DNA of 64,000 nucleotides from Bryopsis sp. KO-2023 (lineage: Eukaryota; Chlorophyta; Ulvophyceae; Bryopsidales; Bryopsidaceae). Both the position numbers and the translations under genes were made by a program. Below are positions 1 through 26,372 of this stretch, piece by piece; position 1 is the stretch's first letter, and each line of letters starts with the position of its first letter. The DNA lies in contig BSYQ01000009.1 of assembly GCA_030272585.1 (NCBI GenBank), forward strand, positions 3,286,001-3,350,000, given 5' to 3'. The notes below the pieces were generated by a model. That model searched no databases. It had not been told where the DNA came from and was given only the letters and a program-made list of their open reading frames with translations.

Positions 1-222
1 GCTTGCAAAGGAAGACTAAATATGTTTGCACTGCAATTTCACAGGAGATTTTTCACGACCATGTAGATTGTCCACAACCTGTACATGCGTGTGCATAACT
101 TATCATTATGGTTTGCCAGAGAGCTGAAAACCACACCCCTACAATGAAAGAAAATAAAATACAAAAGTTTGGCAGACAATAGAAGTTGTGAACCATGGTG
201 TCAGGGGGGGTTCATTCTGTCC
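1..222. other. Intergenic flank left of the inverted duplication
   Basis: No gene is visible. The only recognisable structure is a 29-base stretch at 171-199 that recurs in direct orientation at 4055-4083, just beyond the inner end of the left duplication arm. Confidence 0.5.
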
Positions 223-561
223 GGTTCTGTCTTGCTTTTCAATTGAGGATTAGGGAAAAGATGGATGCATTGTGCATCAATTTCAGATAGGAATCCTCTG
301 ACCCTAAGCAAGGTTGCTTAGGGTCAGACAAAGCCATCTCAAATAATTCTCAACACACCCAAGCGACCCTGCCTATCTCCTGTGAGGGCACGCACCGCAC
401 AGCAGTGCCCGTCGATCGGCGGCGGCGCTGATCGGCCGATTGCTTGATCACGCTTCATGCACGGACCATGGAAAGTGCAAGAGAAAAGCCATAACGACCA
501 AGAGTTGAGGTTTGCTTCCACTGCGACCTCCCCAGCCGTGGAAGTAAGCTGCGAAAGAAAA

Positions 562-607
562 AAGGGCGGCGCGGCTGCTGGCTGCGGGTTCGACTCCCGC
601 ACGCCTT
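562..607 (+). other. B-box-like hairpin near outer end of left arm
   Basis: The sequence GCGGGTTCGACTCCCGC forms a 5-bp stem with a TTCGACT loop, like a tRNA T-arm, and contains a GGTTCGANTCC-type Pol III B box. It is followed by CGCCTT, which can pair with an upstream AAGG(G)CG with one bulge. No D or anticodon arm is present, so this is not a complete tRNA. The copy in the right arm (25915-25962, minus) has GGGCTCGAC in place of GGGTTCGAC but keeps the stem. Function unknown. Confidence 0.45.
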
Positions 608-726
608 GACTGCCAGGAATAAGAAGTTCAGGTGAACTTACAGCAACTCTATAACCGTAACAAAATTTTTCGCTACTTAACCAGGTGAACGCCTTTCTCG
701 GTCTTTACCCGCTTACTTCTGCAATC

Positions 727-2845
727 ATGTTCGAGTGTGTGAGTTCTTACGCTCTTGCATTTGTGCTCATTGCAGCATTGGAATCGTTTTGCGGCTTTTT
801 GTGGCGAAAGGTAGACTTGGGCGTGGCTGGGAGCATCTCAAACAAAATCACAATGAAGACGTCAAGTAAACTCGTCAATCAACATCAGATTCTCAAGAGC
901 CTAAAGATGAATGTGTTGATTTGTACAGATGACCGAGAAAAAGTCCAGCAGACTACAGAGATTGGCGGTGAGAAAGAGAAACGATATCCTTTTGTTTTTT
1001 TCTGGAGAAGTCAACGTCTTTTGATCAGATACATGCATGTCATTGATTTTTCTGATCCAATATCAACCAAAGAACTATTGACGATGTGGGCTGTGAAAAA
1101 AGGCATGGCTGATTTTTGTTTTTCTTGTTGCTGGAAGAACATTCCCCTAGAGGTTTCAGATTTGTTGGAGTTGATTTTCATCGCCAATGTTTGTGTGTAT
1201 ATTTTTCTATTTTTTAAATCTTTTTGGGGGGCTGCAGATCAGAGAGAGGCTTGTGGAATCTCGCGAGCGCCAGCTCCAGGGTGACCTTCAAGACCTCCAG
1301 CGACGCCAAGAACTCTTTCGCCGGGAGCAAATGCAAGCCAAGGTGGGGGCAATTCTTTGCATCAGTTGCCCCAAAGGAAAACCCTCTTGTTGAAAACTCT
1401 TTGTGGAGCTACTCTTGTGTTGAAATGAAAAATATGTGCAGGTACCTATCGAAGAAAATGACATCAAGAATGGATATGATGGGGATGATGATGGCAGCAG
1501 TGCTACTGGATCAACCGATCGAGACTCTGAAAAAGGCTTTCAGACTAATGATTACTATTCCGAGGTACAAAACTGTGTCAGCCCCCTTTCGAAAAACTCA
1601 CATGATGTTTGATTGTTTTAGCATTCTTTATGTTAAACTACTTGTGGTTTGGAATTCAGATCGACGCTGGCACTTCTGCACCGGAATCGACATCTGCCTC
1701 CGCACCTCCATCCTCTCCACCTGAATTGACATCGACATCTGCATCTGCATCTGGAGGAGAGCAAGTTGGCGATGAGCAGGAAAAGGTATTGAAAAATGTG
1801 AACTTTGCACCACCCACTCACCCCTCAAAGGAAAAAACCCTCATTTATTTTATAGTTTACTCCGTGTCTGAACCAATGTATTTCGAAAAATAGTTTAATT
1901 CAAAAACTAAGCTTTACTCAAAAAAAGAACGGAAAGATCCCTCCCATATATGAAGAGCAACCCAAAACGAAATCCTGTTGTGAATCCTATGTGAAGAATT
2001 TGAAGTTTTTATTTTCCAGGAGGGTGCTTCTGCAATAACGATTAAGTTTTTGATCAAACAATGAATGCCCTCTCGTCTTCCTTAGCCTGCATGCCCAAAA
2101 AGTAAAATATCACAGAAGTTTATATTCAGTTATGATGCTAAATGCTTAGGGGGGGGGAAAACTAGTGAAATTTTTTGATGTCGGCAGCTCCAAGAAATGT
2201 TGGCTGACCCCAAGAAAGATGTTGGTGATTCTCTGCCACCAATATAATATAAGATAATATAATATAATTTTGTTTTGCTTCTTGGTGTGCAGGATATCGC
2301 GAGGGAGCAAGCTTTCAAGGTCCTTAAAAGCCTCTACCGCTCGTATGATGCTTTATGGAGGGACATCAGTGGAGCAATCACCGGGAAAACCGTACAGACC
2401 AGCAGCCCTGATACCATGGTGTGTATGCTTCGCTCGTGTTGTGTTGTGTTGTGGGGGTCAGCCATTAAAAAAACATAAAAACCAAAAACAAAGCGAAATA
2501 AAATCTTGGATGAATTACTAAATGTGTGTGTGGTGTGTGTGTGTGTTTTTTTGTGTGTGCAGAGGAGGTTCAATGACTTGACCTACTGGCACGCCAACGA
2601 AGTGAAGTTTGCTAGGGACATTGCCTTCTTACTTGGCGTAATTGTGGAAGAGCTGGATATCCTACGATCTGAGAAGCTGCCAGGTAATCTCTTGGAACCT
2701 CGAGGAGTTGTTTTTTTTTGTTTTTTTTTTTTCGATGCAAGTTTTTTTATTTCTGTGGTTTCCGATGGATTTCTTTTTGATAATTGAATGTGTGGTTTTT
2801 GTAGTGCTCTGCCACCAAGGCAGAAGGGGGCCGTGCAGAAACTAA
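727..2845 (+). CDS. Unknown membrane-anchored coiled-coil protein, left paralogue (9 exons, 265 aa)
   Basis: Exons: 727-810, 929-967, 1238-1342, 1442-1564, 1660-1785, 2188-2220, 2293-2418, 2563-2683, 2805-2845; all introns are GT-AG and the phases fit. The model is supported by comparison with the right-arm paralogue, which keeps every exon boundary. The protein begins with a short hydrophobic segment (about residues 8-20, ALAFVLIAALESF) that could be a signal anchor. Then come an R/E/Q-rich coiled coil (exon 3, IRERLVESRERQLQGD), an acidic Gly/Asp linker (exon 4), a Ser/Thr/Ala/Pro-rich low-complexity stretch (exon 5) and a helical C-terminal half (exons 6-8). ATG 727 is preferred to an in-frame upstream GTG at 685. 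I do not recognise the family and assign no function. Confidence 0.72.
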
Positions 2846-2863
2846 CTTGTTCACCGTATCAGA

Positions 2864-3600
2864 AGGGAATCAAAATGGGGATAAAAATCGGGATCCAAAA
2901 AAAAAGACAATGTTTGCGAATACATGTTATAGATATAGACAGGGGATAAAACGGGGATGAAAAAAAAAGAAAAAAGAAAACAAATAGACAATGTTTGCGA
3001 ATACGTGTCATAGATATACAGGGGATAAAATGGGGATGAAAAAAAAAAAAAAAGACAATGTTTGCACATACGTGCCATACATTGACAGGGGATGAAAAAA
3101 ATGGGGATGAAAAAAAAAAAAAAAAGACAATGTTTGCACATACGTGTTATACATTGACAGGGGATAAAAAAAATGGGGATGAAAAAAAAAAAAAAAAGAC
3201 AATGTTTGCACATACGTGCTATAGATATACACGGGATAAAAAAGAAAAAAAAAAGACAATGTTTGCACATACGTCCTATAGATATACAGGGGATAAAAAA
3301 TCGGGATAAAAAAGAAAAAAAAAGACAATGTTTGCACTTACGTGTTATACATTGACAGGGGATGAAAATGGGGATGAAAAGAAAAAAAAAAAAGACAATG
3401 TTTGCACATACGTGTTATACATTGACAGGGGATAAAAAAAATGGGGATGAAAAAAAAAAAAGAAAGACAATGTTTGCACATACGTGCTACAGATATACAG
3501 GGGATAAAAAATCGGGATAAAAAAGAAAAAAAAAAGACAGTGTTTGCACTTACGTTGTATACATTGACAGGGGATAAAAATGGGGATGAAAATAAAAAAA
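2864..3600 (+). repeat. Minisatellite downstream of the left paralogue (about 10 units)
   Basis: Tandem units of roughly 58-72 bases each combine GGGGATAAAA or GGGGATGAAAA, a poly-A run of variable length, GACAATGTTTGCACATACG and a short TATAGATATACAG or TATACATTGACAG tail. The CAATGTTTGC core occurs about ten times, starting about 18 bases after the stop codon, so the array probably lies in the 3' UTR or just past it. Reading frames through it are repeat artefacts. Confidence 0.9.
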
Positions 3601-3752
3601 AACATTGAAGGTTTCTTCAGTGGCAATTATTATTAGAAAAAACAGGGGAAAAAATGGGTTATTAAAAAAAAGCTAGACCGAGTTTTATGGTCTAAAAAAA
3701 AGAAGATAGAGTTTTATGGTTTTTCCCGAAAGGGGTTTTTTCCAAAAAAAAC

Positions 3753-3805
3753 AGGCATGGCCTGGATGGAGCCAAAAGAAAGGGGGTTCGATTCCCCCTA
3801 TGCCT
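3753..3805 (+). ncRNA. 53-nt tRNA-like element, left copy
   Basis: AGGCATG at the 5' end pairs with TATGCCT at the 3' end as a 7-bp acceptor-like stem. A GGGGG-TTCGATT-CCCCC T-arm sits directly inside it and contains a perfect Pol III B box (GGTTCGATTCC). An A-box-like TGGCCTGGATGG starts 5 bases in. Only one short hairpin replaces the D and anticodon arms, so it cannot be a normal tRNA. A T6 run at about 3840 could end Pol III transcription. The right arm has a matching copy at 22838-22890. Alternatives are a tRNA-derived SINE remnant or a MALAT1-mascRNA-like processing signal. Transcription is inferred. Confidence 0.5.
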
Positions 3806-4054
3806 TAATATCCCAAACCAGAAATGAATCAAAACAAGTTTTTTACTCCATCGAAAATCCTCCCCTCATGTTTTCTCAGGTGGTTTTTTGTCTCATGCCA
3901 GGTAAGTTTATGACTTCTTGATAAGGTCTCGAATCAACTGAATCGAGACTTTTGCCAAAAGTAGTGAAAACTTTGAATCCTATGTTTAAAAACAGGTTGA
4001 TGTTCAAATTTGATTTCTAGGCCAAATCAAATCGAGGATGGTTTAGAACTCCAC

Positions 4055-4331
4055 GGCAGACAATAAAAGTTGATTACCATGGTTACCAACTTGCAAATTG
4101 TGGTGGTGTTGGGGAGGTGTTCAGGGTTTTTTTTTCTATTCTGTTTTTTTTCTCCGAGTGTGGCACAGTTGACAATATATTGATATATATATCCAAGATG
4201 AGGATTGATTGAGGATTGCGTCTTTTTTTCTGCTGCTAAACAGCAAGGAATTCACACAGTGGACGGACCGAAGGTGGATGGTGTTGGCACAGTCCCTTGA
4301 AACCCTCAAAATCACAGTATCTATGCACGTG

Positions 4332-4366
<35 letters not shown>

Positions 4367-4865
4367 AAAGAATTTTACATGCATGTAAAGTTCAATTTTA
4401 CAAACGAAGCAGGCCGCCTCAAAAGTCAGCAAAGAAAGCTCCTAATAACTGTCGTCTCATCCAACGCCCCTAATCGGAAAATAGAGTTGTTGGGTCTTTT
4501 AAACCCACGTGTTCAAGTGAGAGTTCCTGGTGATCTCCCCTCATTCAATAAAATCCCCCCCCCAAAAAAAACGACAAGGCAGTACACACATATCCTAACA
4601 ACTGACCACTTGAGAAAGAAAAAGAATCGTTGAAAACAAAATAACAAAATATCAAATAAAAAACGAGGAAGCCACAAACAAGTGGCCTTGGCAACCGCAC
4701 TGAGACGAGTAACCAAAAAAAAAAAAAAATCCAAAGAACTTCAGGAGTGTCCATGTCCTTGTGTTCAAAACATGGACGCGTTGGGGTGGGGGTGCATCCC
4801 CCCCCCCCCCTCAAAGAAAGGCTTTCATGGAAACGATTCATCGGTCTGTGCTTTGCTCCGTCTTG
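4055..4865. repeat. Spacer with direct-repeat copy and (CA)n microsatellite
   Basis: Bases 4055-4083 repeat 171-199 (GGCAGACAATA followed by AAGTTG and ACCATGGT), with weaker similarity continuing downstream, so it may be a remnant of a third copy of the arm's outer end. A (CA)n tract runs at about 4336-4362. No gene is visible; the 3' end of the minus-strand monooxygenase gene follows. Confidence 0.5.
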
Positions 4866-7800
4866 CTATCGTACAGCTCCAAGAAGGCCTGAAGGGAGAT
4901 CAAATGAACAAACCATCAAACAAGCCAGACATTTTTTAAGCAGTGTGGTTTCATATTTCCATGATTCCACAGCAGGTACAGTTTCGACGCATATATATAT
5001 ATATGGGAAATCAACACCCACATGGTTCGCACAGCAGATCGCCAGTCCCCAGCAAGGGGATAAAGAAAAAGCTATTTCTAATCCCTGGCATGCATTGTTT
5101 AGAGAAATCCTTGATTTGTATTTTTTTTCCGCTGCCTCACCTTTTTGCAATGCTTTTCCACATCGATTTCGATGATAATTGGGTACAATGGATAGATCAG
5201 CTTACCCTCCTTCATGCCATTTTTGAGAAGGGAACAGCCCATCAAATTGTAGGCAGCCTCAGCACACTCTGTTTGAATTCGACAAAAAAAATATATCATC
5301 ATGATGATGCCCCATCAAGAAGGAAAACGGCCTTGAGATAGATTTATATCTGGCTTTGTTCAGAATCTTGGTAAAATAAGTTATCATATATTTTCAAAAA
5401 GAAAAAGAACAGAATATCAAAGAATCATCGTTGGCAAGAATGCCAAGCAGGACAGGGAAACCACCTCAAAAATGTTTATGATGTTTTTACACAATAAAAA
5501 CATTCACCCAATCGACCAAGCACAAACGTGGATGAATGTCAGTATTACCAATCTGCAGGTCGAAGAAATAGAAGAAAAAAAAGAAAGAAAAAGAAAAACC
5601 TACCCAGAGAACATTCTTCTGTATCCTCCTTGTCACCAAGACGTGTGAATATAACCTCGGCCAGATTTTTCCCACAGCTTTTTGAGAAGCCTTTCGCTAT
5701 GCCTGGCCCAGAGCTCGTATCGATCCCTTTCAACGCCGATGCATCGCAGGTCAAATCTCCCTCCAGGTAGGCCCTCCTCCATTCTGGAAAGCTGGAATCG
5801 ATTTTAGGCGTTTTGATGAAATCGAGGAGCGATGTTAAGTTTTGGAACTGCTCGCTTGTCAAAGCTCCAAAAAAACCAGGGCCTTTGATGTACTTGACTT
5901 TCAACGCCTCTGCAGGGTAGTCTGATCATCCACCACGATCATAAAAAACGAAACAAAAATTCGATCAAATCAGGAAGAACATGCCCGCCTTTTTTCAAGA
6001 ATACATCACTTGCACTTGCAAGACAATTTTGAGAGGATGCACACAGTTTCTTAGAACAAAAAAAAATTCAACAGAAAAAGGAGACCCTTCCCCCCTCCCT
6101 TCCACCGTTTTCCCCTTCCTTGTCCATAAACTCAAACCACTCTGGCAAAAAATGGCCTGATAATAAACATCCTTGCCAACTCTTCTTTTATTCTTTTATT
6201 TCGATAGCTGCATTCACCAGCTGCATTCACCACTTACATCCAATACCAATGATGCACATTTCATCCGTGGAACCAGGGCCCCCAACAGTCACATCATCCC
6301 TGTTTCTGGTATCGTAAATGCATGTGGTCGCCAGGATCTCTCCATTTTTCACTTTGACCGGCTTCACTCGCTCGTACTTTCGGAGATGGAAACTCCACTT
6401 GTCATCCCGGGTCAAATCATCCACCTATGAGCATAGCAAAATTCAACAAAAAACACCCAAGTAAAACCCCGCAGACCCACCCCCCCCCCAAAAAAAATAA
6501 TAATAATAATAACAATAATAACATAATTAGACATATTTATTTTTAATATCTGAGTAATACCTCACTCTTATATATTACCCAAAATCGATTTTTACATTTA
6601 ATCCTCCAAGAACCAGCAGCTGATAGCGTCGTTTGGAATCTGGTGGAGGTGATTCCCTCAACTCACCTTTTCGAGATCAGCCAGATCCAGTGGGTAGGTC
6701 GAATTGAGATCGGAACTCATCTTCAATCTCTCTGTGAACATGCGTCGCCCGGTGAAGTGCATGTGTGGAATGTAGGCAAAGACCGTCACTCCATCCGGTG
6801 CGATTTCTTCATCGACAATGAACTGAGCCAGGGTAGCTGAGAGAAATTTCGTCTTTGGCGGAATCGTCCCCACAGACCAAATAGTTCCAGCACCAAATGT
6901 TGCAGCCTGTGGATGCATCAAATCAATCGAATGCAAGGACTAAGTGGAGATCATGCAAACTAACGGTTTGATGGTATTTTTTATTTTTGTTTTTCAGGTG
7001 GCAATTGTGAAAGCCATTCGATATATTATGAAATCCTTGAAAGTGATTTCTTTGGTGCTCTATTTGGGGAGTGTTTCGTACGAAACCTGACACGAAAAAT
7101 GATAGTGAAGAACAATCGATAATATTTCGGCTTTTTTTCCCCAATTGAGAAAACTATAGAGTGTGTATGTGTGTGTGTGTGTGTTTTCAGCACCTCGTAT
7201 TCTCTTGGTTTGGTTGTCACGTGGAGTCGCATCCCGCTTGCATCAGTCAACCCTTCTTTCAGGAAAGGATTGTTGTAGTGCATCCGCAAGATCAAACCCA
7301 CTCGGCCCGTTCCCTCTCCAAGCGAAATACTGGCCTTCGATGGCAGTACAGACGACTCTATACCCAAAACAATAAGAAAAACCATTTTGTTTTCTTTACT
7401 CGTTCATTTCAATCAATTCATTCTTGATTGGGTTTTCCATCCGGCTCGACACCTACCGGAGCCATGCGACCAGAAATACACGCCTTCGGTACATTCTTCA
7501 TTGATGATTTCGTATGGAACAACACCCGGCTTTTCCACCTTTGTGGTGCAGCTTCGCATGGTGAAGTGATTCAGGAGTTCTTTGTTATCCAGGAGAGGTT
7601 CCGCACCGACCACGTAGTAAGTTTCACCCTCCTGGCCATGAATGAACAGGAATATATTCAGAGACAATTCCAAAACATCAAATCTCTCTATTTTTGTTGT
7701 TTGAAATTGACAAAAATAAAGCATTCTGGGAAGGATATATCGAAAAGTAGAAGACCTCGGTATCAACAGTACTGACCTTTTCTAATTCCTTATTTTTTTT

Positions 7801-9078
7801 CCCTGCAGATTTAACTTGCAAGGAAAAAAATAATAATAACATGCATATTTAAATTTTTTGGTTGTGAAAGGATCAAAAGAATTGAAATACTTGAAACTGT
7901 GTTTGAATCTTTTTTTATTTAATTTTTTTTATGGGTTTGGGAGCTGGGGGAATCACCGGCAAGTTCAGTCTGTAATCCACGTAGGTGGTTTCTTGTGCAG
8001 GAATCGTTTGCTTTTCGATATGGAAGTCCAAGGTTTTCTGCTCCTCTCCTGCATTGTAAAACTTCGCAGCCTCGAGTGGCAATGCATTCCTGCACAAGCA
8101 ATCAACAAGATAATTCCATCTCAACCCCCTCCCCCAAACTATAAATCCCGAAAACAATAATTGAACAATTATAGAGCATGTGCCTTTGGGAAACCCTCTG
8201 AAGCCTTGGGAAACTCACTCGCACTGTTTTTTGATGTCTGGATTCGGCAGCTGCTTTGACTCTGGAACACCTGGATGACTGACTGGCCAATCAAGCATCC
8301 ATTGCGGAGACCGGGCACCCTGAAACCCAAAAGGAAACAAGTCCAGTCAATGTGGTCTTCAATTGTGATAAAACTCCAGCCAGATAAATAAGTAGCTAAG
8401 TAGCTAGATAAGTAGCGTTTCTGATCAAGGCCAGATACTTGGCATTGCTCCATCCAGTGACTGTTACACTAGTGCGTTTCCGATTGCTTAATCTTGGGTT
8501 TGCGGAGTATAGATGTCTGAAGAAAGGTCACATCCCAAAGCTTTTCATAAAATTGACAAACAAATTGCAGCTCAACTTCAGAACACAAGTTCACACCTCC
8601 GTCCAAATGCAGCAAGGATCTCCCAGTTCTTCCCCGTTGCTGAAACCGTCCCCATCCGAATCCATTTCGCACAGCTCCTTGGTCCAGGTCACTCCCTCTG
8701 CCAACAAATCCTGCAAACACACCTCAGTATTAAAAGACAGTTTTCGAACCCAAGAGACCCCACACTCCAGCACAACCTGTTCGTCAAATCCGCACAACCT
8801 CCCATTCGAGACGGAATTCTCCTGCAGATTGACGAAAACCGTTCGCTAGATTGCTTGAGAATTCGCTGTGGTACCTGTCCGAATTTGTTAAGGGCTGGCG
8901 TGATCACCCCCCCTCCGCATGATTCGTGGCCGACGCCCTCGCACAGACTCCCTTCGTCGCAATGGGGGTCGCCGCCAGGGCATGGAACGATATCACCGTT
9001 GGGAATTGTCGATCGATAATGCTCCCTGGCATTGCCAAAACCGATCAGAACCAGGCAAAAGACAAAATAGAAAGGCAT
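4866..9078 (-). CDS. Secreted temptin-domain/DBH-like copper monooxygenase (11 exons, about 573 aa)
   Basis: Exons (descending): 9078-8875, 8710-8597, 8319-8219, 8089-7957, 7631-7457, 7357-7194, 6906-6667, 6424-6238, 5921-5604, 5268-5206, 4888-4866. Residues 1-17 look like a signal peptide. Residues about 18-150 match the temptin Cys-rich module, including a calcium-loop-like DSDGDGFSNGEELGDPCC. Residues about 165-490 match the DBH/PHM copper type II monooxygenase: IPAQETTY, a distal His in LRMHYNN, the CuM pair PHMHFTGR and the methionine ligand in DEMCI. The family hydroxylates substrates with O2 and ascorbate. The usual CuH His-His pair reads Asn-His (ELLNHFTMRSC). Exons 10-11 are the least certain. 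It is head-to-head with the next gene. Confidence 0.82.
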
Positions 9079-9761
9079 CTTCACGGAACGCCACTGCTGC
9101 AGCCGAAGAATTTTGCCGACTGTTCTGCTGCGTGCTGTTTTCCCCGGGGTTTTCCCTCGGGGGGGCCCCCCGAGCTTCCATACAACGAGGATGTCTTGGC
9201 GGACAACGTTGTGCCCCCAATACAATGTCTACTCAGTTAACCGTGTATGTATTTGATACATGTACGCTGGTGTAGGGGGTCTGCCGAAGTGTTGCTCGGT
9301 TGGCTGTGATTGGTTGATGTCTTATTTTGTAACGCTTTTTGCTAGCTTCTTCGTGTATGGTTGTGTTATGGCTTGTTCGAGAGCACCCAAAGATCTACTA
9401 GCCACGTGAGGAGGAGGAGAGAGAGTGATCTAACAGAACCGATCATTCCAATGTGGCAAAAAGAGGTCATCCCCCACCCCAACGCCAAAGAACCACATAT
9501 GAAACACCACAAAAACCCACCCAAAAAGCTTCATATTTTCCAAGAGGGAAAAACCAAAAAAGATGTTGACCACGAATCAAAAGCCTGAAGGACCAATCAG
9601 ACCGCTTAATCTGGAAAGAGGTCTGGAAATCAAATCACAGAGACAGAGGTGTAACATCGGTCCAAAAACATCGTAGAGCGACGTCAAATCCATGTACAAT
9701 AAATAAATATCGAATTGATGCAAGCCCCTTCCGTCACGCAGCACCCCAACAGCAATCAACA
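9079..9761. promoter_or_regulatory. Divergent intergenic region, monooxygenase / Cys-rich protein
   Basis: The start codons of two genes for predicted secreted proteins face away from each other across 683 bases. The monooxygenase-proximal part (about 9080-9200) is locally GC-rich, as near other gene starts in this window. No convincing TATA box or other motif was identified. Confidence 0.4.
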
Positions 9762-14458: not shown

Positions 14459-14561
14459 TGCTTGCACGCAGTCTTCTGCGTCCTCGACGCCTCCCGACTG
14501 CTGTGCCCAGCGCCAGACCAGCAACGACGAGGACGCTTGAGCACAACTGGAACAGGCCCAT
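14459..14561 (-). CDS. Candidate first exon of a small secreted protein (partial, uncertain)
   Basis: An ATG at 14561 opens 34 codons beginning MGLFQLCSSVLVVAGLALG, a good signal-peptide pattern followed by an Arg-rich segment, and ends at a strong donor (GTGAGT). The surrounding DNA is GC-rich, as at other gene starts here. The remaining exons are not established, so this could also be a chance reading frame. Confidence 0.28.
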
Positions 14562-15421
14562 GATGAAAGACTCTAGGTTGGGAAAGTCTCGCGGAACTCA
14601 CGGAGTAACCCAAGGAGCAGCAAAACCTGCCGGTACTGGCCTTGCTTGACTTCAGGTACAGGGACGCAAACGGGGTGAAAATAGGTACCTCATACCTCGG
14701 CACATGGCTGTAAAATATCGCATATTCTTCCCATTCCTCTCGTAACCACCAGTAGAACTAGTACCTTTTTGTCCCTCCACGATTTTTTTTATTTTCCTTT
14801 GGTTCAGAAGCTTTATTCTTCCCCCTTTGTGTTGCTATTGACGTACAACCGAAAAGAGATCTTTCTTGGTAGGCTCCCAAGGCAACATGTAATCATTGAT
14901 TGATTGATTGATTTCCGAAAAGGAGGTTTGGTAAACAGAATGTGCTTTTTCTTAATCCATGGAGAGGGCGATGAACTGGCCGCAGTATTTTTACTGCCTG
15001 ATCCTTCGTCAATTGGAGCAGTCTGGAATCCGAAATAAGGCCATATATTCTGAGCCACCAACACCAACCCAGACTGCACAACCCAAGATCTGCTGTATTA
15101 AATACTGCACTCATTTTCGAGTTTATGGGAATTCAAATGTATGTTGCAGCTATGATGGTGGCCCACACTCCATTGGCAATCGTTTTTCCGAGCCGAGTTT
15201 CAGTCGATAACTAGGTTCCACTGTAACAAGAATCTGTGGCTCTACAACATGATAACACACACACACACACAATGGTACGCTGGCGGCAGAAGGTGAGGTT
15301 TCAAAACCCCCACTTTGCTTCATCTGGTGCTTAAACTTACCTAACCAAAAATCTCATAATAATTGATAATTCAAAATTTCACAATGCCACAGTCAAAAGA
15401 TCCTGGGACAAGAAGTATACT
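14562..15421. other. Intergenic region
   Basis: No supported gene. It contains a (TTGA)n-like run near 14895-14912 and a short (CA)n tract near 15251-15269. It is probably the 3' flank of the downstream minus-strand gene. Confidence 0.4.
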
Positions 15422-18400
15422 CTATTCTAGCACCATTCGGTCAGATTTATTCAAACCTTCAACAAGGGGCTGCAGTTGATCTGCCTTATCATACATTCCC
15501 TGCCACACAGAAAAACGAAAACAAAAAATCTCACCATACAACGTCAATAGAGCTAGTCACTGTGTGTGTGTTTCAAAACATTTGATATCTTTTTCGGCAT
15601 CAAATAACTGCTGTCATTTCCACATATATCTTCCTTATCATTTAGTTCCATAGGATTCTAATTTATTCGGGGTCTGTCGACCTTCAACTCACCAATAAAC
15701 CTCCAGTGTGGATGAATAACACTTTTTTGCCTTTCCATTGGTCGGGATTTTCTCGAACTTCCTTGAGAAAACAATGCACCGCTTTTCCGGAATATACTGG
15801 ATCAAGCACGATCCCACTGGCAAGTGCGACGTCCTAATTCATTCAAGTTTTTTTTTAGTTCATCAGTTGGACAAACCAGTTGAAAATTGAATATGCGATG
15901 AATGGAACGAAGCTTTAAAAAAAGACGGTCTATCTGTGACTGCTGAAAAACTAGAGAAAAAAAGCAACACACACACTTTGAACCAAAAGTGTTTTTCCAA
16001 CAAATGAATCAAGAATACCTAAATGGTTACTATTTTTATTCAATTTATCGAACTTATTCTCCTTTCCATTCGCAAGAATAGCTCCCAAAAAACACAAATT
16101 CAACAGAATGATGAAAATTAAAATACAAGCCAATTCCAAAGAAAAAGATTCCGGCAGACATACTTGTAGGGTCTTCAACTCGTCCTCTCGGCTGATGGCA
16201 TATCCGGCACCCTTTGCTTGAATAGCTCTAAAAATATCTTCTGCAGTTTTCCCGATGTTTTCTGGCGTGGCCCCCAGGCCATCGTACAGACCATTTATGT
16301 AATCAAAAAAGTATTTTTCATCGTCGCAAACCCCATAAGAATGAACCTTGACATCCCATCCGCTCAAAAACACACCCAATGCGATGCCCCCCGATGTCGC
16401 ACCACTGCCACAAGCCTGGAGGGAATCCAGCCACAAAAAAACTTCAAAAAAATGCATCTAGAGAAGAAAACACATGTATTGGCGTGTTTGTGCATATTCT
16501 AGTGAAAAATATGTATAGGGGAAAAAAATGATTTTGCTTTTTCTTTGGAAAACAGCGAACTCTCGGTTGATCTTGATTGGGGATGGTGTTCGTTGAGGAA
16601 GCGAGCTTTTTTAAAATTTAATTTTGAACTTATTTCAGCTAATTTAATTAATTTGAAGACTGCATTAATTCTGCAAGCAATTCGTGATACATTGTTAGAA
16701 AAAAAAGCAAGGAGAAAAAAACCCAATCCATACCACAAAGATATCGGTGAAACCTTGATCTCCGATTTGTTTCTTGAGCTCATCGACGCATGCGATGTAG
16801 CCCCAAGTGCCCAGTGAATTGGATCCACCCACTGGTATGACATAGGGATTCTTACCGTCGGCCCGCAATTCATCAGCCAATTTTTCTCCGAGGAATTCCG
16901 ACCCCAGTCGGGTATATTCTTCCTTCGTAACCTAGGTTTTCCCCAAATCTCCAGTGATTTTTTCTACATGGCACTGTCTGACAAAGATCGAGGTGGGATG
17001 TTCCTCTGGTTTACATATATTTCTGGATATATTTTTATATTATATTTGAGAAATCCTTTATATTCCCACTTGCTCTATGATTCCCATTTTCACTTGCACT
17101 GAACAATCTCCACTGTATCAAGGATCCATTTTGCACCCGCAGTGTGAAATCAATTTTTGCACACATATTTCTTTCTCAACCGATTTTTTTTTTTTTTTGC
17201 ATTTTCCTTTTTTTGATTTTGAAGTTGGGCTCAAACCTGATGAATGTGGGCACCGATGAATCGCTCCACCAATAGATTTCCCACCAATCCAGGGTCAGCC
17301 TCAGCCCCTCGAGAGGAATTTCTCAATATCAAATGTGAATCCAACCCTAAATAACGTGCAGCCACAGCTGTGGCTCTGAAAGAGAGGAAAAAAAAATAAA
17401 AATCCCTTATTAACAAAACCAACCAACCAACCAAACTGTACGTTCATAAAGGCATGCATATTCACAAATAAATGAACCCAAGAAAACTCCTCACCAAAGG
17501 TAAAACACAAAAACAAAATTCCCATGAAGCCATTTCCGCTACAGCTGAAAAACTATCCATGGATTTACAACAAAGAAAATGCAGTTGCATGTGTACACAC
17601 CCAAAAAATTACCTGCAATGGTTGGATTGGATTCCACCAATCGTAATGATACAATCGTGGCCTTTTGCTTTTGCATCGGCAAGGAGGAACTCCAACTTTC
17701 TAACCTTCATCGCCCCCCAAAAAAAACAAAAAAAAACTTCAGAGCAAAAACGCAAAAAGAAAACAACAAAAATATGCTTTCCCTCCCATTTTGCTTGATT
17801 TGATATTTTCGCTTTGTCTGGGCCAACACATATCATTTGCATTTGCATCCATTTTCCATTTTTTTAATTCTGATCTCACATTTGGTCTACAAATAGTCCC
17901 CTTTCTCCCCACACAGTGTGAATCGCGCTTCTGATTTCTTCTTTTTTTTTTCCCTCACCGACAGAAAATTCTTTTCGAAATACGAATTAGCCCACTCCTT
18001 GTCTTGCCTTGTTTCCGCTCAATTGCATTCCAGACAGGTCATCCCTCTTGATGAAAAGATCCACACCATCGACCAGCCCATCCAGTTTCCATTCGTGAAC
18101 CGGGGTCGGTAGCATACCAAGGCAATACCTCTCCTTTGGAATCTAAACACACGCATGCATACCCCCCCCCAAAAAAAAGTGCAAAAAATACCATGTAAGA
18201 ACGATTACCACCACCACCACCATGCACACACACTCATACATGCTATAGTTTTCCCCCGCCAAGAACTGGCTTAGTAACCCTTAAACAGATCGCTTGTGTT
18301 CAAGATATGTGTTCCCATCTCCATTGGATGGCATTTCGAAAAATTGGTTTCTAAGCCAAATACTAGCCTGTCACAGGATTATTTTTTATTTATCTATTTT

Positions 18401-18507
18401 TGCTCGTTTTCTTAGAAGCATTATTTGTTTCACAGTTATGCTACCATGGTGAGTTTGCTCGCCCACGAAGGGGCAGTGTATGATTCCAGCTCCATCATTT
18501 GCCGCAT
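15422..18507 (-). CDS. ACC deaminase / D-cysteine desulfhydrase, PLP enzyme (8 exons, about 362 aa)
   Basis: Exons (descending): 18507-18445, 18142-18008, 17704-17613, 17375-17237, 16922-16734, 16415-16164, 15833-15693, 15499-15422. The protein carries the family signatures [28 protein letters not shown] (the Lys of SGNK binds PLP), [38 protein letters not shown] and [10 protein letters not shown]. Plant relatives mainly break D-cysteine into pyruvate, ammonia and H2S; bacterial relatives open ACC. Sequence alone does not separate the two activities here. The intron after the PLP-lysine exon has a GC donor (AAG|GCAAGA). The start at 18507 is the first ATG of the exon ending [11 protein letters not shown]; further 5' exons with a targeting peptide are possible. 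Confidence 0.88.
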
Positions 18508-19278
18508 CGTCGCATGTGTCCGGAGTTTACCTTTCGGAAAGAGAAAAAGTACATCATTGAGAACTGAGCAATCTAAACCGACCAACGTTCAGCGAGGTTG
18601 ATAGCAAAAAAAAAGGAAATTATAACGTTCATAACGTTTGTGGCCTGTGCATAACGGTAAGCCCATATCACTCATTTGCATAGTGAACGGGCTACATGGG
18701 GCTCTCAGCCTCGATGTATTACATTTGAAAAAAGAATAAAAATGATTACATTACATTTATTTATTTAGTACATTAATAAAAAAGGAAAAACAAAATTATT
18801 ATTATTGGAAACAGTCATGTTTTCGATTTCGTATATCGATCGTTTTTGGATGGAGAGCAGCCCTGTAAATAAAAATAAATAAGTAGAAAGTTGAAATCTA
18901 GAGGTGAAATCCATAAAAAAATACCCAAGAAAAAAGCATGTAAAGCATCGTATTTCGATTTCCTGCCACAAGGATCGAACATGCTTACCACCGATACGCA
19001 GTTTCCGAGAACAAGACAGCCTTGAGCTGCGCTCTATCGGAAGCTGCTGGATCTGTCCAAGCGAACAAGCACCGCCTCCCATCATCCTTCGATCAGCTGG
19101 TCGAGGAATTCGATGTAAAATCAAACCATTCGCATCTTCTGGTGGAGATCGGACCACATCGGAGCATCTGCCCCGCTTAAAAACCTGCAAACTCAGCTCA
19201 TTTCGTTTAAATTTAGAGGGAGCATTCACACAGCGCAGGATTCTCGTCGCAGGATCCCCCCTCCGTGACTTGACGAGC
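18508..19278. promoter_or_regulatory. Divergent intergenic region, ACC deaminase / bicupin
   Basis: The two start codons are about 770 bases apart on opposite strands. Overlapping open frames on both strands (18.8-19.45 kb) are probably fortuitous in this balanced-composition stretch, though part could be 5' UTR or an upstream exon. No promoter motif could be assigned. Confidence 0.35.
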
Positions 19279-21621
19279 ATGCCGACTTTCTCCAGAGGTC
19301 TGGTTGGTCGCGTACGTTGCTTCCAAGAGGGGTGCGTGGCTGGAGCAAATACCTGGAATCCTGTTGTTTCAGGATTTTTCTGCTGACGAGGCGTGCTCAT
19401 GTCTTTTTTCCGCTCCAGCACAACGAAATTTGTGAATTTTTGCATTCCAGGGTGGCTGCCAAGCCTAATGTTGCCATAAGGACTTCACTATCAGGATCAC
19501 CAGCTTACGGATTCGATGGTGACAACTGGGGAATCGAATGTCATATTCCGAGGCTGATTTGCCTTCGGACACCGTGTTTTACATAATTAATTACGGAAAA
19601 AACTAATTTCACCTTGTCAAAAACCTTAACTAGTGTAATGATTTTTTCCTTACTTAATTTTGTAAAAGACGGTAGGTAGTGGGGCAATTGAATAGAAATG
19701 GAATTGTACGGTGTCACTATTATCTGAGGAGTGTTGCTGTGCATGCATGTCCTTTTTCGAATTCCGGTTGTGTGGGGGAAAAAACACCTCTGTGTCATGA
19801 CCATTCAAGCATTGGCATTACAAATGTCTGCATGCATGTGAATTGTGCAGGAAAGAAAAAGCTGGTTCCTCTGTTGCATCCATCAGTGGAGCAATTGCCT
19901 TTCGGAATGGCATTGGAGCTTTGGCAAGCACCACAGCGTCGCATGGACCCTGTGGAAAGAATCAAGTCGAAGGGCTTTCCCATGAGAAGAGATTTGTACG
20001 AAGTGAACTATGTTGTTCAGGGGCAAGGAACGGTGAGTGACCTTTTGCCAAAAAAAGGTTCATCTCCAGGTGTTCTGTTTCTGTTTTTTAGTTGAAGGGG
20101 GGGGGGGGAGACATCAAAAAGAAAAAAACATCACACTTAGTTAGAAAAAAACCAAAAAGTGTGATCCTCTCCACAATGATAACAAGCCCAACCTCCAGTA
20201 GTGTGTACAGAACTTATCGACAAACCTTGTTAAACCAACTAGTGAACAACAAAACCTCGGAAAACTAACCATTCAATTATTGGAATTAGTTTAAAAAAAA
20301 AACAGAAAGCTGAGAAATTGAAACAGTGACGCTCGGGCAAGATGGGAAGATTCCCAGGGAGGATTGATTAATTCTTTGAACATTGCTTGCGTAGCTGATG
20401 AGTCACGATGGAAGTCTGGACATTCTGAAAGCAGGGGATAGTGTAATAATGCCGTACAAGGGAGCCTGGTGTGAACCTCTAAATGTGGCCGAAACTATGG
20501 AGGATGGATCTGAATGGGGACTTGTGGTGCTAAGACTGTTGTTGCCCTCGGATCTGCTCATCTCCCCAAGTAGCTGCCTCTCTTGATCTTTTTAATTGTT
20601 TCTTTTTTATTTTTAAATGTGTACAGAAAATCACTGGAAATTTCTAGATTCGTGATGATGGTTGGGGGAAGAGGGGTCTGTCGTTTTTGGTTTGAGTTTT
20701 TTTTTCCATTGTTTTCCATCTCCTGCCATCTATTGTGAAATGATGTACACCCATTTGTTTGTTTTTCACCAAAGAAACGATCATGAAATATCACATCATG
20801 GAGGAGAGCTCTTTTTTTTTTCAGTTGTTTGGATGTATTTCTCTGCACAATGCTTTTTCTGTGGAAAACTTGCTCCGATAGGTTTCAGATTATTGCATTT
20901 GTTTCTCAGCCGATCTGAAACGCATGCTGTGTGTTCAGACGGGATGTTCTCTGATTGCAGTGTGGCGATCGCCGCCTGCGAAGAATGGTTTGCCAGCGCC
21001 GGAGAGTGTCGAAGCCTAACCCCCCATCAGGTCACCCATCTCCTTTCTGGAATGCAACGCTCCATACAACACACACCACCAGTTCGATCCAAAGACGTCA
21101 GACTGAGGCGCATCGTGCCAGACGGCAGCACGGGTGAAATGCACGAGTTGGGCGACCACCACCAACAAGACCCAGTCAAAGGAGGACACCCTTCTTCGGT
21201 GATGAAAAAAAGCTTGCAGGATTTGCCCACTTTCAGATTGCCCAACCAAACCAACCGGCTGGCATTGGTGTTCGACCCTACGGAGGAAGACATCCCTTTC
21301 GCATTCGGTGTCGAGATTTTCGAGCCTTCGCATCACACCACCCCCCATGTTCACAATTCCGCCCACGAACTGTTTTTCATATTGAGCGGGGAGGGGGTTG
21401 CCTTCTGCAACGGGCATTCGTTTGCTGTGAGTGCTGGGGACACCGTGGTTTTCCCACCAGGATCTGTTCATGGAGTAGATAACGGTCCCAACTCCAGAAT
21501 GTACTGCCTGGAGATGATGCTCCCCAACGAAATGTTTGCTGAGTTTGTTAAGAGGGGAAAACCGGTCGGCGGCCTCAACAAAGACGATCTCTGTACATTG
21601 ATCGCGGTTGGGTGTAGCTGA
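19279..21621 (+). CDS. Bicupin protein with one intact metal-binding cupin (5 exons, about 390 aa)
   Basis: Exons: 19279-19311, 19419-19518, 19851-20032, 20395-20569, 20939-21621. The first two exons rest on splice signals and phase only; from 19851 onward the call is firm. Cupin 1 (RDLYEVNYVVQGQGT ... GDSVIMPYKGAW) lacks the His pair. Cupin 2 has both complete germin-box motifs: PHVHNSAHE(x6)G, giving two or three His and a Glu, and GDTVVFPPGSVHGVDN, giving the last His. It should therefore bind a divalent metal and could be a dioxygenase, isomerase or sensor; the substrate cannot be read from the sequence. A segment between the cupins contains several Cys. It is divergent from the ACC deaminase gene. 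Confidence 0.72.
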
Positions 21622-22631
21622 GGTTGGTTTAATTTTGGGTTTTCTCAAACCCACCACAGGAAAGCTTAGTGTGGCTTGTATCACTATCAAGTTCAAAAAA
21701 GACATGAGTGCTGATATCAGATTTCGGAACATATATGTATATAAATTTTCCACTGCAGCAAATGTTTGCTGTCCAAACGAGATGATCCCGTTAGATTTTC
21801 TTTTTTTTTTATTGTTTCTTTTTTGGCTTATGAGTTTTGGATGTTTGAGAAGACGTAAAGGGGTTTTTGGGCAGGTTTTTGGTACGAATTGGTTTTGGCC
21901 GTTAGAGAAAAGTCTTGACAGCAGGGTTCCTTTTCAAAATTGAAGGGAGGAAAGAGATGGAGCTGTGTGCAATGTAAGCAGATATCTAGTGTTTGAGTTT
22001 TGACTGACACCAGTCTATGGCTGGAGGAAAATAGCTTGAAAAGAAACTTTCCTTTCAAATGCTGGGACCTCATACAGCAGTGTTGTGGCATGCAACCTGC
22101 AACCTGGCGCCAGTTCAAGAAAAAGAAAATAAGAATGGGGAAGATGGCAGCTCGATTGGTCACGGTCGTACAATCAAAATTCTTGATTTCTATCACCTAC
22201 ACTGGGAGTCCGACCAAAAAAATCCACCGACTTTCCTGAAATGTAAAATTGGATTTCCATGAGTAATGTGAGGAAATAGAAAAACAACAGAGAACACTCT
22301 GGGACTTTAGTTCCTTGAATTGTGCTAAGCTTCCTCCACTCGTATCAAATCCCGATCGCATCAATGTCCTTGTGCTTGATGGCCCAACCAAAAATGATCC
22401 AAGGCAATTATGCAATGTACAATCTACATCACCTCGCGGAACCACCCACTGAACAATTACCCGATTGCACAATTTTGTAGTAACTAGAATATGGCAACAA
22501 AAGAAATGGCCCAATCAAAATCTCAGACAAAGTGAATTCCTCATCCCCATATTATGGCGAGTAAAATGAATCGATCGTTGTTGCCTTTATTCACACACAT
22601 TCAGGATTTCATATCTGCATTCATCGATGTA
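21622..22631. other. Intergenic region between bicupin and right duplication arm
   Basis: 3' flank of the bicupin gene. No additional gene, RNA or repeat recognised. Confidence 0.4.
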
Positions 22632-22837
22632 ATTCGAATCATCCTCAATTGGGCCACGACATCAATTTTTGAAGATTAACCTGTTTTAAATACTCTACTT
22701 TTGGCAAAAGCCTCGATTCAGTTGATTCGAAACCTTATCAAAGTCACAAACTTACCTGACATGAGAAAAAAACATGAAGGGAAAATTTTCGATGGAGTAA
22801 AAAAAATGTTTTAATTCATTTCTGGTTTTGGATATTA

Positions 22838-22890
22838 AGGCATAGGGGGAATCGAACCCCCTTTCTTTTGGCCCAATCCAGGCCATGCCT
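22838..22890 (-). ncRNA. 53-nt tRNA-like element, right copy
   Basis: Same length and fold as 3753-3805: acceptor-like AGGCATG/TATGCCT, T-arm GGGGG-TTCGATT-CCCCC with a B box, and an A-box-like TGGCCTGGATTGG. In this copy the internal hairpin is better paired (GGCC-TGGATTG-GGCC) than in the left copy. Preservation of stems and length in both arms despite flanking divergence suggests a constrained RNA or a shared tRNA-derived repeat end. Confidence 0.5.
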
Positions 22891-23039
22891 GTTTTTTTTG
22901 GAAAAACCCCTTTCGGGAAAAACCATAAAACTCTATCTTTTTTTTTTTGAGTAGACCATAAAACTCGGTCTAGCTTTTTTTTTTTTTGATAACCCATTTT
23001 CCCCTTGTTTTTCTGATAATACATGCCACTGAAGAAACC

Positions 23040-23400
23040 TTCAATGTTTTTTTGTTTTTTTTTTCATATTAATATTCGCCATCTTTTTTTTTCTTTTCAT
23101 CCCCATTTTCATCCCCAGTCTATCTATAGTATGTATTTGCAAACATGTTCTTTTTTTTTTTCATATTAATATTTACCATCTTTTTTTTTCTTTTCATCCC
23201 CATTTTCATCCCCAGTCTAGATTTATAATACGTGTTTGCAAAACATCGTCTTTTTTTTTTTTTTTTTTTTTTTCACCCCCATTTTTGTCCCCTATCAATG
23301 TAGAACACAGATGTGCAAACATTGAATTTTTTTTTTGATCCCCATTTTGATCCCTATTTTGATCCCCATTTTGATTTCCTTCTGATTCCCTTTCTGATTC
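23040..23400 (-). repeat. Minisatellite downstream of the right paralogue (about 3-4 units)
   Basis: Same unit family as the left array (GGGGATGAAAA, poly-A, TTTGCAAAC-type core) but with only three or four recognisable units and longer spacing, followed by degenerate GGGATCAAAATGG repeats next to the stop codon. Confidence 0.8.
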
Positions 23401-23423
23401 CCTCCTTATATCAAGTGAACAAG

Positions 23424-25788
23424 TTACTTTCTGCACGGCCCCCTTCTGACTTGGCAGAGCACTGCAAAAACCACAGATTCAATTATCAAAAAGAAATCCA
23501 TCGGAAACCACAGGAATAAAAAAAATGGCATCGAAATCTAACCAAACAACTCGAGGTTCCAAGATATTACCTGGCAGCTTCTCAGATCGCAGGACATCCA
23601 GCTCTTTCACAATTACGCCAACTAAGAAGGCAATGTCCCTAGCAAAGTTCACTTCGTTGGTCTGCCAGTAGGTCAAGTCATTAAACCTCCTCTGCACACA
23701 CAAAAACACACACACACATTTAGTAATTCATCCAAGATTTTATTTCGCTTTGTTTTTGGTTTTTATGTTTTTTTAATGGCGGACCCCCACAACAGAACAC
23801 AACACATTACAACACAACACCAGCAAAGCATACACACCATGGTATCAGGGTTGCAGGCCTGTACAGTTTCCCCGGTGATCGCTCCACTGACGTCGCTCCA
23901 CAACGCATCGTAGGAACAGTAGAGGCTTTTGAGGACCTGGAAAGCATGCTCCCTCGCGATATCCTACACACCAAGAAAAAAAGCAAAATTATGTTATATT
24001 GGTGACAGAGAATCACCAACTTCTTTTCTGGGTTCTGCCAAGATTTCTTGGAGCTGCCGAGATCAAAACATTTAACTTTTTTTTTCCCCTAGCATTAGCT
24101 TCAGACATCACAACTGAATATAAACTTCTGTGATATTTTACTTTTACAGGCTAAGGAAGACGAGAGGGCATTCATTGTTTGATCAAAAACTTAACCATTA
24201 TTGCAGAAGCACCCTTCTGGAAAATAAAAACTTCAAATTCTTCACATAGGATTCACGGCAGGATTTCGTTTTGGGTTGCTCTTCATATATGGGAGGGATC
24301 TTTCAGTTCTTTTTTTGAGTAAAGTTTAGTTTTTGAATTACTCTAATCTTCGAAATACATTGCTGCTTAAGACAAGGAGTAAATTATAAAATGAATGAGG
24401 GTTTTTTCCTTTGAGGGGTGGGTGGGTGGTGCAAAGTTTACATGATTCAATACCTTTTTCTGCTCATCACCAACTTGTTCTCCTCCACATGCAGATGCAG
24501 ATGTCGATGTCGATGCAGATGTCGATGGACGTGCGGATGGAGGTGCAGATGTGGATGTGGATGTGGATTCAGAAGCAGCTGTTCCAGCGTCGATCTGAAT
24601 TCCAAACCACAGTTGAGCATAAAGCATGCTAAAACAATCAAACATGAATCTTTCGAAAGGAGACTCACACAGTGTTGTACCTCGGAATAATAATCATCAG
24701 TGTCGAAGCCTTTTCCAGAGTCTTGATCGTTGGTTCCAGTAGTACTGCCACCATCATTATCCCCATCATATCCATTTTCGGTGTCATTTTCTGCCACAGG
24801 TACCTGCACATATTTTTCATTTCAACACGACAGTAGTACTCCACAAGAGTTTTCAACAAGCAACTGATGCAAAGAATTGCCCCCCATCAAAAGTCGATCG
24901 CCGACATTCTCTCTACAACCCTTCTTACGTTTTTACTTAAAGGATACCAGAACAAACATTGAATCAAGGTCAAAAAATGCAATCTTTGCAGCAAATCGAT
25001 CTCAACATTTTCCTTTTTTTTTCACTGTTCTCCACACTAACAAAGTCCCACCTTTGCAAGCATCTGCTCCCGGTGAAAGAGTTGTTGTCTTTGCTCCAGG
25101 TCTTGGAGGTCACTTTTGAGCTGTCGCTCGCGAGATTCCACAAGAGCCTCTCTGATCTGCACCACCACCCCCCAAAAAAAATGTATAAACACAAACATTA
25201 GCGATGAAAATGAACTCCAACAAATCTGAAACCCAGGGAAATGTTTTCAACCAGCAACAAGAAAAAAACAAAAGGCAGCCACGCCTTTTTTCACAGCCCA
25301 CATCGACAATAGTTCTTTGGTTGATGTTGGATCAGAAAGATCAGATCTCTGTTTCGGAAAATTCGTTACATTGAAATTCCCATAAACATCAAGTTTTCAC
25401 AATGAAGAAACTGGTGGGATGAATTTGAACCATCCACAGTGGCAACGCACTTACATCTTGCACTTGAAAATCAATGACATGCATGTATCTGATTGAAAGA
25501 ACTGGACTTCTCGAGAAAAAAACAAACGAAAGGATATATTTTTTCTCTTGCTCACCATCAATTGCTGTAGTCTGTTCGAGTTTGCCTTGGTGAACTGCAA
25601 AAAATCAGCACATTAATCTTTAGGCTCTTAAGAATCTGATGTTCAGTTGACGATTTCACTTGACGTCTTTATTATGATCCGAGTGATTGACGCTCCCAGC
25701 CACGCTCAATTAAGTATACCTTTCTCCACAAAACGCCGAGAAACGATTCCAATGCAATGAGCACAAACGCAAGAACGTAAAAATCCAT
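23424..25788 (-). CDS. Unknown membrane-anchored coiled-coil protein, right paralogue (9 exons, 264 aa)
   Basis: Exons (descending): 25788-25720, 25594-25556, 25156-25052, 24803-24681, 24594-24454, 24053-24021, 23963-23838, 23691-23571, 23461-23424. Every splice site and phase matches the left paralogue. The N-terminus is MDFYVLAFVLIALESF, then a coiled coil (IREALVESRERQLKSD), an acidic linker, and a 47-codon Ser/Thr/Ala repeat (42 in the left copy). The C-terminus keeps the motif WQTNEVNFARDIAFLVG. Exon 2 is the most divergent: 13 residues with only a few shared with the left copy. No stop or frameshift breaks it, so both copies look functional. Family unknown. Confidence 0.72.
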
Positions 25789-25914
25789 GTTTGCACAAGT
25801 AAGCGGGTAAAGAATGAGAAAGGCGTTCACCTGGTTAAGTAGCGAAAATTTTGTTACGGTTAGAGAGTTTCTGTAAGTTCACCTGAACTTCGTTTTCCTG
25901 GCAGTCAAGGCGTG

Positions 25915-25962
25915 CGGGAGTCGAGCCCGCAGCCAGCAGCCGCGCCGCCCTTTTTTCTTTCG
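25915..25962 (-). other. B-box-like hairpin near outer end of right arm
   Basis: Counterpart of the 562-607 hairpin. Stem GCGGG/CCCGC and the downstream ACGCCTT are retained, with one change in the loop-proximal base (CTCGACT for TTCGACT). It lies in a GC-rich block upstream of the right paralogue's start codon. Confidence 0.4.
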
Positions 25963-26372
25963 CAGCTTACTTCCACGGCTGGGGAGGTCGCAGTGGAAGC
26001 AAACCTCAACTCTCTTGGTTTTCTTTTGCACTGTCCATGGTCCGTGCATGAAGCGTGATCAAGCAATCGGCCGATCAGCGCCGCCGCCGATCGACGGGAA
26101 CTGCGCTGCGGTGCGTGCCCTCACAACAGATAGACCGGGTCGCTTGGTTGGTGTCTGTTTTTTTTCTTCTAGCCCAGGTCACTTCATTCACGAAACGTTG
26201 GCTCAAGCCTCGGACGTTCCAACTCAATTCCCACGCCCATTTCCATATAAACACAACATCGATCCCACTGGTTTGGGTGTGTAGAGAATTGTGTATGGTT
26301 AGGAAATTGATGCACAGTTTTGGCATCCATCTTTTCCCTAATCCCCAATTGAAAAGCAAGACAGAACAGGGC

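Follow-up and report, generated by a model that had tools for sequence, protein, structure and literature searches.

The window, i.e. the whole 64-kb stretch of DNA analyzed here (C9:3286001-3350000), contains two arms that face each other, arm A on the + strand (about 213-3964) and arm B on the - strand (about 26378-22695). Such an inverted duplication had been proposed in the initial annotation. BLAST of the window against itself yields collinear inverted matches along both arms, pairing 213-284 with 26378-26303 (89% alike), 356-1050 with 26150-25467 (85%), 1044-1347 with 25343-25047 (81%), 1345-3123 with 24884-23084 (80%) and 3289-3964 with 23367-22695 (77%). The two arms are real, each about 3.7 kb long, with a spacer of about 18.7 kb, and are piecewise 77-89% alike; both show the order of parts described before, namely a GC-rich 5' block, nine exons, an A-rich minisatellite and a tRNA-like element. 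Elsewhere in the window, Pfam recognizes an FAD-binding oxidoreductase (28715-29281, -), GATase_5 (36651-37373, -), a group 1 glycosyltransferase (55452-56726, -) and, below cut-off, an amidase-like stretch (31553-31915, +).

The two genes are models drawn by eye from sequence, using splice signals and the comparison between arms. As had been claimed, both nine-exon genes are open and have GT-AG introns. The arm A gene (727..2845, +) encodes 265 aa in exons 727-810, 929-967, 1238-1342, 1442-1564, 1660-1785, 2188-2220, 2293-2418, 2563-2683 and 2805-2845, and the arm B gene (23424..25788, -) encodes 264 aa in exons 25788-25720, 25594-25556, 25156-25052, 24803-24681, 24594-24454, 24053-24021, 23963-23838, 23691-23571 and 23461-23424. 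At exon 6 a GTTGGT donor is required for an open frame. The arm A protein has no Pfam family above cut-off, and of the three stretches in the viral contigs that matched a pattern none encodes a relative of it.

Concerning the selection that had been suggested for both genes, the coding sequences of the arms differ with dN 0.138 and dS 0.309 (Nei-Gojobori), a ratio of 0.447 (bootstrap 0.298-0.669; at least 1 in 0 of 1000 resamplings), which is consistent with constraint acting on both proteins. Divergence by feature, computed with gaps excluded, advises caution with that suggestion: exons differ at 119 of 780 sites (15.3%) and alignable introns at 131 of 1234 (10.6%), counter to a simple purifying picture, and since the exons are the more diverged, conversion, intron constraint or diversifying change may each have contributed. 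The 3' UTRs differ at 106 of 455 sites (23.3%), the 5' blocks from position 532 (532-726) at 9 of 194 (4.6%), and the 3' elements at only 2 of 88 (2.3%; P 0.003 at the intron rate). Intron 7 differs by 3.1% only. A piece of about 85 bp in arm A intron 5 (1847-1929) and in the matching intron 5 of arm B corresponds to contig C28, with 88% in both arms, and reads as a plastid-related insert that would predate the duplication. Contig C28 (91,672 bases) is presumably green-type plastid DNA, as judged by eye from the reading frames in 5.5 kb of it, which we take to be psbH, cysA and a psbB split in two by another reading frame.

Arm A DNA was searched against the genome (91,088,769 bases in 28 contigs), which gave at least 60 listed matches, many of them short (40 of 46 candidates were scored), on contigs C1, C3, C4, C5, C6, C7, C9, C10 and C28, with the 5' and 3' blocks co-occurring at several loci. 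Relatives of the arm A protein (E < 0.05) are found in 11 of 20 loci (L009, L010, L011, L013, L015, L016, L017, L018, L019, L021 and L023); a further one is present at L020, by reading its DNA, and L024 and L027 give weak protein matches only (E 0.25 and 0.14). Family copies lie in direct tandem (L009) or in either orientation (C4, C6 and C7), so the inversion looks incidental and, on the layout of these copies, the inverted pair is one of several family arrangements. That the arms matter as a pair, through exchange of sequence, flipping of the spacer or hairpin RNA, would fit their similarity and their facing orientation, but with relatives placed otherwise elsewhere and each arm being a complete gene, we consider it extremely improbable; no sign of a function of the inverted arrangement was seen.

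The 5' block (arm A, 356..726, +; arm B, 25789..26150, -), whose part 532-726 recurs at other family loci, comprises a T-arm-like hairpin with a TTCGACT loop (T1; 583-601, +, in arm A and 25931-25913, -, in arm B), a polypyrimidine-CAG and a conserved 5' UTR, with 13 copies of each. Behind T1 the polypyrimidine-CAG is followed by an AAGTTC..GAACTT hairpin, and this stretch is conserved in the 13 aligned copies where the coding part has diverged; the T1 hairpin itself persists in 12-13 of 13. No convincing acceptor stem is seen in the consensus fold of the 13 copies, and T1 is at most a doubtful candidate for a second complete tRNA-like structure; a trans-splicing acceptor behind T1 would be purely conjectural. 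Each arm carries two tRNA-like pieces, this hairpin and, at the 3' end, a more complete one.

The latter belongs to an element formed by the last 88-89 nt of the arms (3718-3806, +, and 22924-22837, -), which reads, in order, GG, U5, CCC-GAAA-GGGG, U6 (arm A) or U5 (arm B), CC, A8, CA and a tRNA-like structure. In arm A the ENE-like hairpin (3718..3743, +) is made up of GG (3718-3719), U-run 1 (3720-3724), the CCC-GAAA-GGGG stem-loop (3725-3735), U-run 2 (3736-3741) and CC (3742-3743); the encoded A-tract, A8, follows at 3744..3751 (+) and the tRNA-like structure at 3753..3805 (+), with an RNase P cut expected at about 3752-3754. The equivalent parts of arm B, all on the - strand, are a hairpin with U5 and U5 (22900..22924), an A8 tract (22892..22899) and a tRNA-like structure (22838..22890). 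This structure has acceptor, D and T arms, and the anticodon arm is missing. The description "tRNA-like" is therefore apt, and a tRNA gene is not what was found: ARAGORN gives 0 tRNA genes in the window, where a full cloverleaf is not seen, and Rfam has no match there at the gathering cut-off. At six loci, Rfam likewise shows no match of the type of mascRNA-menRNA (the Rfam family name for the MALAT1/NEAT1 tRNA-like part) up to E 5, with sub-threshold unrelated matches only. The initial annotation noticed the tRNA-like element and overlooked that a U-rich hairpin and an A-tract immediately precede it.

Further copies were found as BLAST relatives of arm A or by one exact pattern, hence the census is a biased lower bound. 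The exact pattern occurs at 12 places (0 for the reversed control), and the exact ENE-A pattern has 0 matches in each of the collections viral_contigs and genome_contigs. A model built from 15 copies (R1) and run over 28 sources gives 23 matches of 50-118 bits, i.e. the 15 building copies and 8 others, with the next best at 23 bits. Parsing of these 23 places shows the ENE expression at 21 and, by eye, at L033, and L025 is left with only the tRNA-like part, so that the order of U-run, stem-loop, U-run and A-tract is found at 22 of 23. The tRNA-like structure lies immediately 3' of the A-tract; it is decayed in L015 and L022 and damaged at the 3' end in L041. The loop (GAAA, AAAA, TTCAAA or GTTACA) and the linker vary, the U-runs and A-runs are retained, and L022 has CC instead of CCC in the apical stem. 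Where the linker has 3-4 nt, U-run 2 is as long as the A-tract in 7 of 9 copies (L033 by eye), the exceptions being L045 and L046. The flanking of the U-runs by GG/CC and CCC/GGG corresponds to an ENE-type U-rich internal loop between G-C pairs, although the GG/CC criterion is not independent, since GG was part of the search expression. In 9600 simulated 64-kb first-order Markov sequences, the ENE expression, which was tailored to the copies, gave 0 matches and a loose tRNA-like expression 28, against 2 each in the window.

Structural support was obtained from covariation in 20 copies and 15 pairs, in an alignment that leans towards the model because it was fitted to it. Paired cells amount to 96.7%, against 91.4 +/- 0.9 in shuffles and at most 66.3% for structures slid along the alignment. 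Cells with double changes number 13 (3.9 +/- 1.5 in shuffles; 0 of 500 shuffles reach this value), whereas two of the five measures, pairs with a double change (4 vs 2.1; 19 of 500) and further pair types (10 vs 8.1; 23 of 500), are only weakly above shuffles. In this alignment, the acceptor and T stems covary. The invariant CCC/GGG stem speaks neither for nor against the structure, and covariation in kind is impossible for the U- and A-runs. An uninterrupted D-stem occupies the same position in 14 of 21 copies, with four different sequences among them, and the remaining 7 have none under this rule. Minimum-energy folds show the CCC/GGG hairpin together with a U-run 2/A-tract helix in 3 of 4 copies, the fourth folding otherwise, and the energies of the folds are unremarkable (z -0.77, -2.50, -1.20 and -0.84).

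Copies of the element also lie behind genes other than the arm A family. At L043 (C10) the gene is a protein kinase (Pkinase, E 4.4e-51) whose stop codon is 27 nt from the element; at L026 (C9) it is UbiA (E 3e-28), at 940 nt; and at L033 (C4) a coiled-coil frame with a sub-cut-off match to CEP63 (24.5 bits, cut-off 33) has its stop, by eye, about 490 nt upstream. The corresponding distances are 872 nt in arm A and 499 nt in arm B. No gene was recognized in the short upstream stretches at L044, L045, L046 and L047, and wherever one was recognized the element is on its sense strand. These positions bear on two other explanations. The element could be a tRNA-derived, SINE-like repeat, flanked by U and A, that reached 3' UTRs by spreading and has no role in 3' ends: most copies hold a perfect box B (GGTTCGATTCC), and the copies are dispersed over several contigs. 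A box A-like part, with one mismatch by eye, lies closer to box B than it would in a tRNA, owing to the lack of an anticodon arm. This short spacing, the sense orientation wherever a gene was recognized, the stems kept by covariation and the preserved order of U-runs and A-tract speak against such a repeat, which we regard as quite unlikely. The second explanation takes the element as the end of separate lncRNAs starting downstream of the coding genes, whose mRNAs would not include it; known MALAT1-type ends do sit on lncRNAs, according to PMC12941219 and PMC10869381, but only 27 nt separate the kinase stop codon from the element at L043, and in the family copies the element stays linked to the gene and the A-rich stretch, which makes separate transcripts very unlikely. 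RNA polymerase III transcription of the whole unit was also judged unlikely, because of T-runs within it.

Upstream of the element, the 3' UTRs of the two arms contain A-rich minisatellites (2897..3602, +, and 23055..23403, -), and runs of at least 8 A form clusters of 16 in arm A (2897-3751, +) and, in the sense direction, of 9 in arm B (23336-22892, -); clusters of at least 4 A-runs occur in the 64 kb only in these two 3' UTRs, both times in sense orientation. Counted over the 600 nt that precede the element, 22 places have in total 129 A-runs vs 6 T-runs (at least 8 nt each), with at least 6 A-runs at 14 of 22 places, at least 3 at 18 of 22 and few (0-2) at L022, L033, L043 and L044. Background windows outside the arms have a mean of 0.59 A-runs, reach at least 6 in 0.2% of cases and have 8 in none. 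Downstream of the element there is 1 A-run in all, the downstream stretch being shorter than 100 nt at six loci. In the stretches covered at L012, L013, L014, L023 and L024 the element is absent despite 5'-block sequence (best 22.9 bits); a cluster of A-runs, three in number and in sense direction, occurs at L014 and at none of the other four. Given that clusters are present at most element places and scarce at element-less loci, encoded A-tracts and element mostly co-occur.

These A-tracts are also relevant for the alternative of ordinary polyadenylation, according to which the U-rich hairpin would clamp an added tail or serve one isoform, as in NEAT1, with the tRNA-like part as an optional processing signal. 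The genes have exons, introns and stop codons like those of normal mRNAs, and plant ENEs act on added tails according to PMC12501189. However, an A-tract is encoded exactly at the MALAT1 place in 22 of 22 ENE-bearing places, and in both arms the A-rich 3' UTR sequence stops at the element; ordinary polyadenylation is, in our judgment, unlikely.

The order of the parts, their conservation, the stem covariation and the same-strand place behind unrelated reading frames, all of them read from the DNA, suggest instead that each arm represents a single member gene from a dispersed family, and that its transcript probably ends in a MALAT1-type manner, i.e. with a tail-free end made by RNase P and protected by a triple helix. 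We infer that a single transcript spans coding gene and element. RNA polymerase II would transcribe the gene, the 3' UTR rich in A-tracts, the ENE-like hairpin, then the A-tract and finally the tRNA-like structure, just 5' of which RNase P would cut, with RNase Z cutting behind it. Plant protein-only RNase P requires the elbow and is not known to need the anticodon arm. The freed A-tract would then pair with U-run 2, U-run 1 lying in the groove, giving U.A-U triplets capped by the CCC/GGG helix. This triple helix would hide the 3' end from exonucleases, hence no added poly(A) tail would be needed, and poly(A)-binding protein may sit on the A-tracts encoded in the 3' UTR. Wilusz reportedly found in 2012 that a MALAT1 triple helix allows a reporter lacking a tail to be translated. 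More tentatively, and with somewhat less than an even chance of being right, this coenocytic green alga may have a class of nuclear coding mRNAs in which the poly(A) tail is wholly replaced by what the gene itself encodes, namely 3' UTR A-tracts to which poly(A)-binding protein would bind and an end protected by a triple helix, which RNase P would expose by cutting ahead of an anticodon-less tRNA-like structure, so that the MALAT1 solution would have arisen twice, the second time on mRNAs.

By analogy, the algal layout fits that of MALAT1 step by step, at a smaller scale. The lizard and fish MALAT1-like transcripts described by Zhang et al. in 2017 are reportedly noncoding. For the MALAT1/NEAT1 end, processing by RNase P and RNase Z and the triple helix are established, according to PMC12941219, PMC10869381 and PMC11411715, and the order is the same as here: U-rich run, apical stem-loop, U-rich run, A-tract and, directly downstream, a tRNA-like structure. 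According to PMC11411715, nine U.A-U triples and one C+.G-C are present in MALAT1, along with duplexes at the base and the apex and a linker of 15 nt, whereas the algal element has 5-8 U per run, A6-9, a basal stem of 2 bp (GG/CC) and a linker of 0-4 nt. Furthermore, the MALAT1/NEAT1 module (ENE, A-tract and mascRNA) belongs to nuclear lncRNAs, while the algal element lies behind open reading frames, including the kinase and UbiA, and its tRNA-like part has no anticodon arm and, unlike that module, no Rfam match. Multi-copy triple-helix and tRNA-like elements within one genome have a parallel in the dozens of MALAT1-like elements that PMC10869381, citing Zhang et al. 2017, gives for anole lizards and some fish; those are vertebrate transcripts, whereas the algal ones have coding hosts in a plant-like lineage. 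The KSHV PAN and retrotransposon ENEs resemble the algal hairpin in having, within the 3' part of an RNA, a U-rich internal loop enclosed by G-C pairs, and about 200 ENE motifs, mostly of plants and fungi, are tied to LTR retrotransposons according to PMC12501189; PAN and retrotransposon ENEs clamp an added poly(A) tail, in contrast to the algal A-tract, which is encoded and followed by a tRNA-like structure.

Among the matches listed for the open-licence PMC literature, in the text accessible there, no MALAT1-type end outside vertebrates or on mRNAs was found; in PMC12941219 and PMC10869381, such ends characterize two lncRNAs of vertebrates along with relatives of these in lizards and fish. 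If the proposed reading is true, the MALAT1 layout can arise independently in a distant lineage and serve translated mRNAs, and unrelated genes can share a type of mRNA end that is encoded in the gene and independent of poly(A). The more than 20 natural variants, which differ in U-run, loop, linker and A-tract lengths and have an anticodon-less tRNA-like part, form a series on which the rules that govern RNA triple helices and recognition by RNase P could be tested. As a speculation, long-lived tail-free messages could aid mRNA transport and storage in a giant multinucleate cell.

Finally, a few repeats around these loci should be mentioned. Upstream of the 5' block, L023 holds two more short tRNA-like pieces with a T-arm and no ENE, one at 4320-4399 (-), which scores 22.9 bits, and one near 4468 (-). 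A longer sequence with a GGTTCGAATCC box is repeated at L012 (496, +; 3702, -; 6571, -) and L013 (1007, +), and is perhaps a tRNA-derived repeat. The sequence downstream of the element (3816-4018 in the window) is repeated in arm B, in the second copy at L009, at L022 and L025, and at C1:10545499-10545614, the last being a copy without the element; this repeated sequence holds CAG-GTAAGT-like splice signals.
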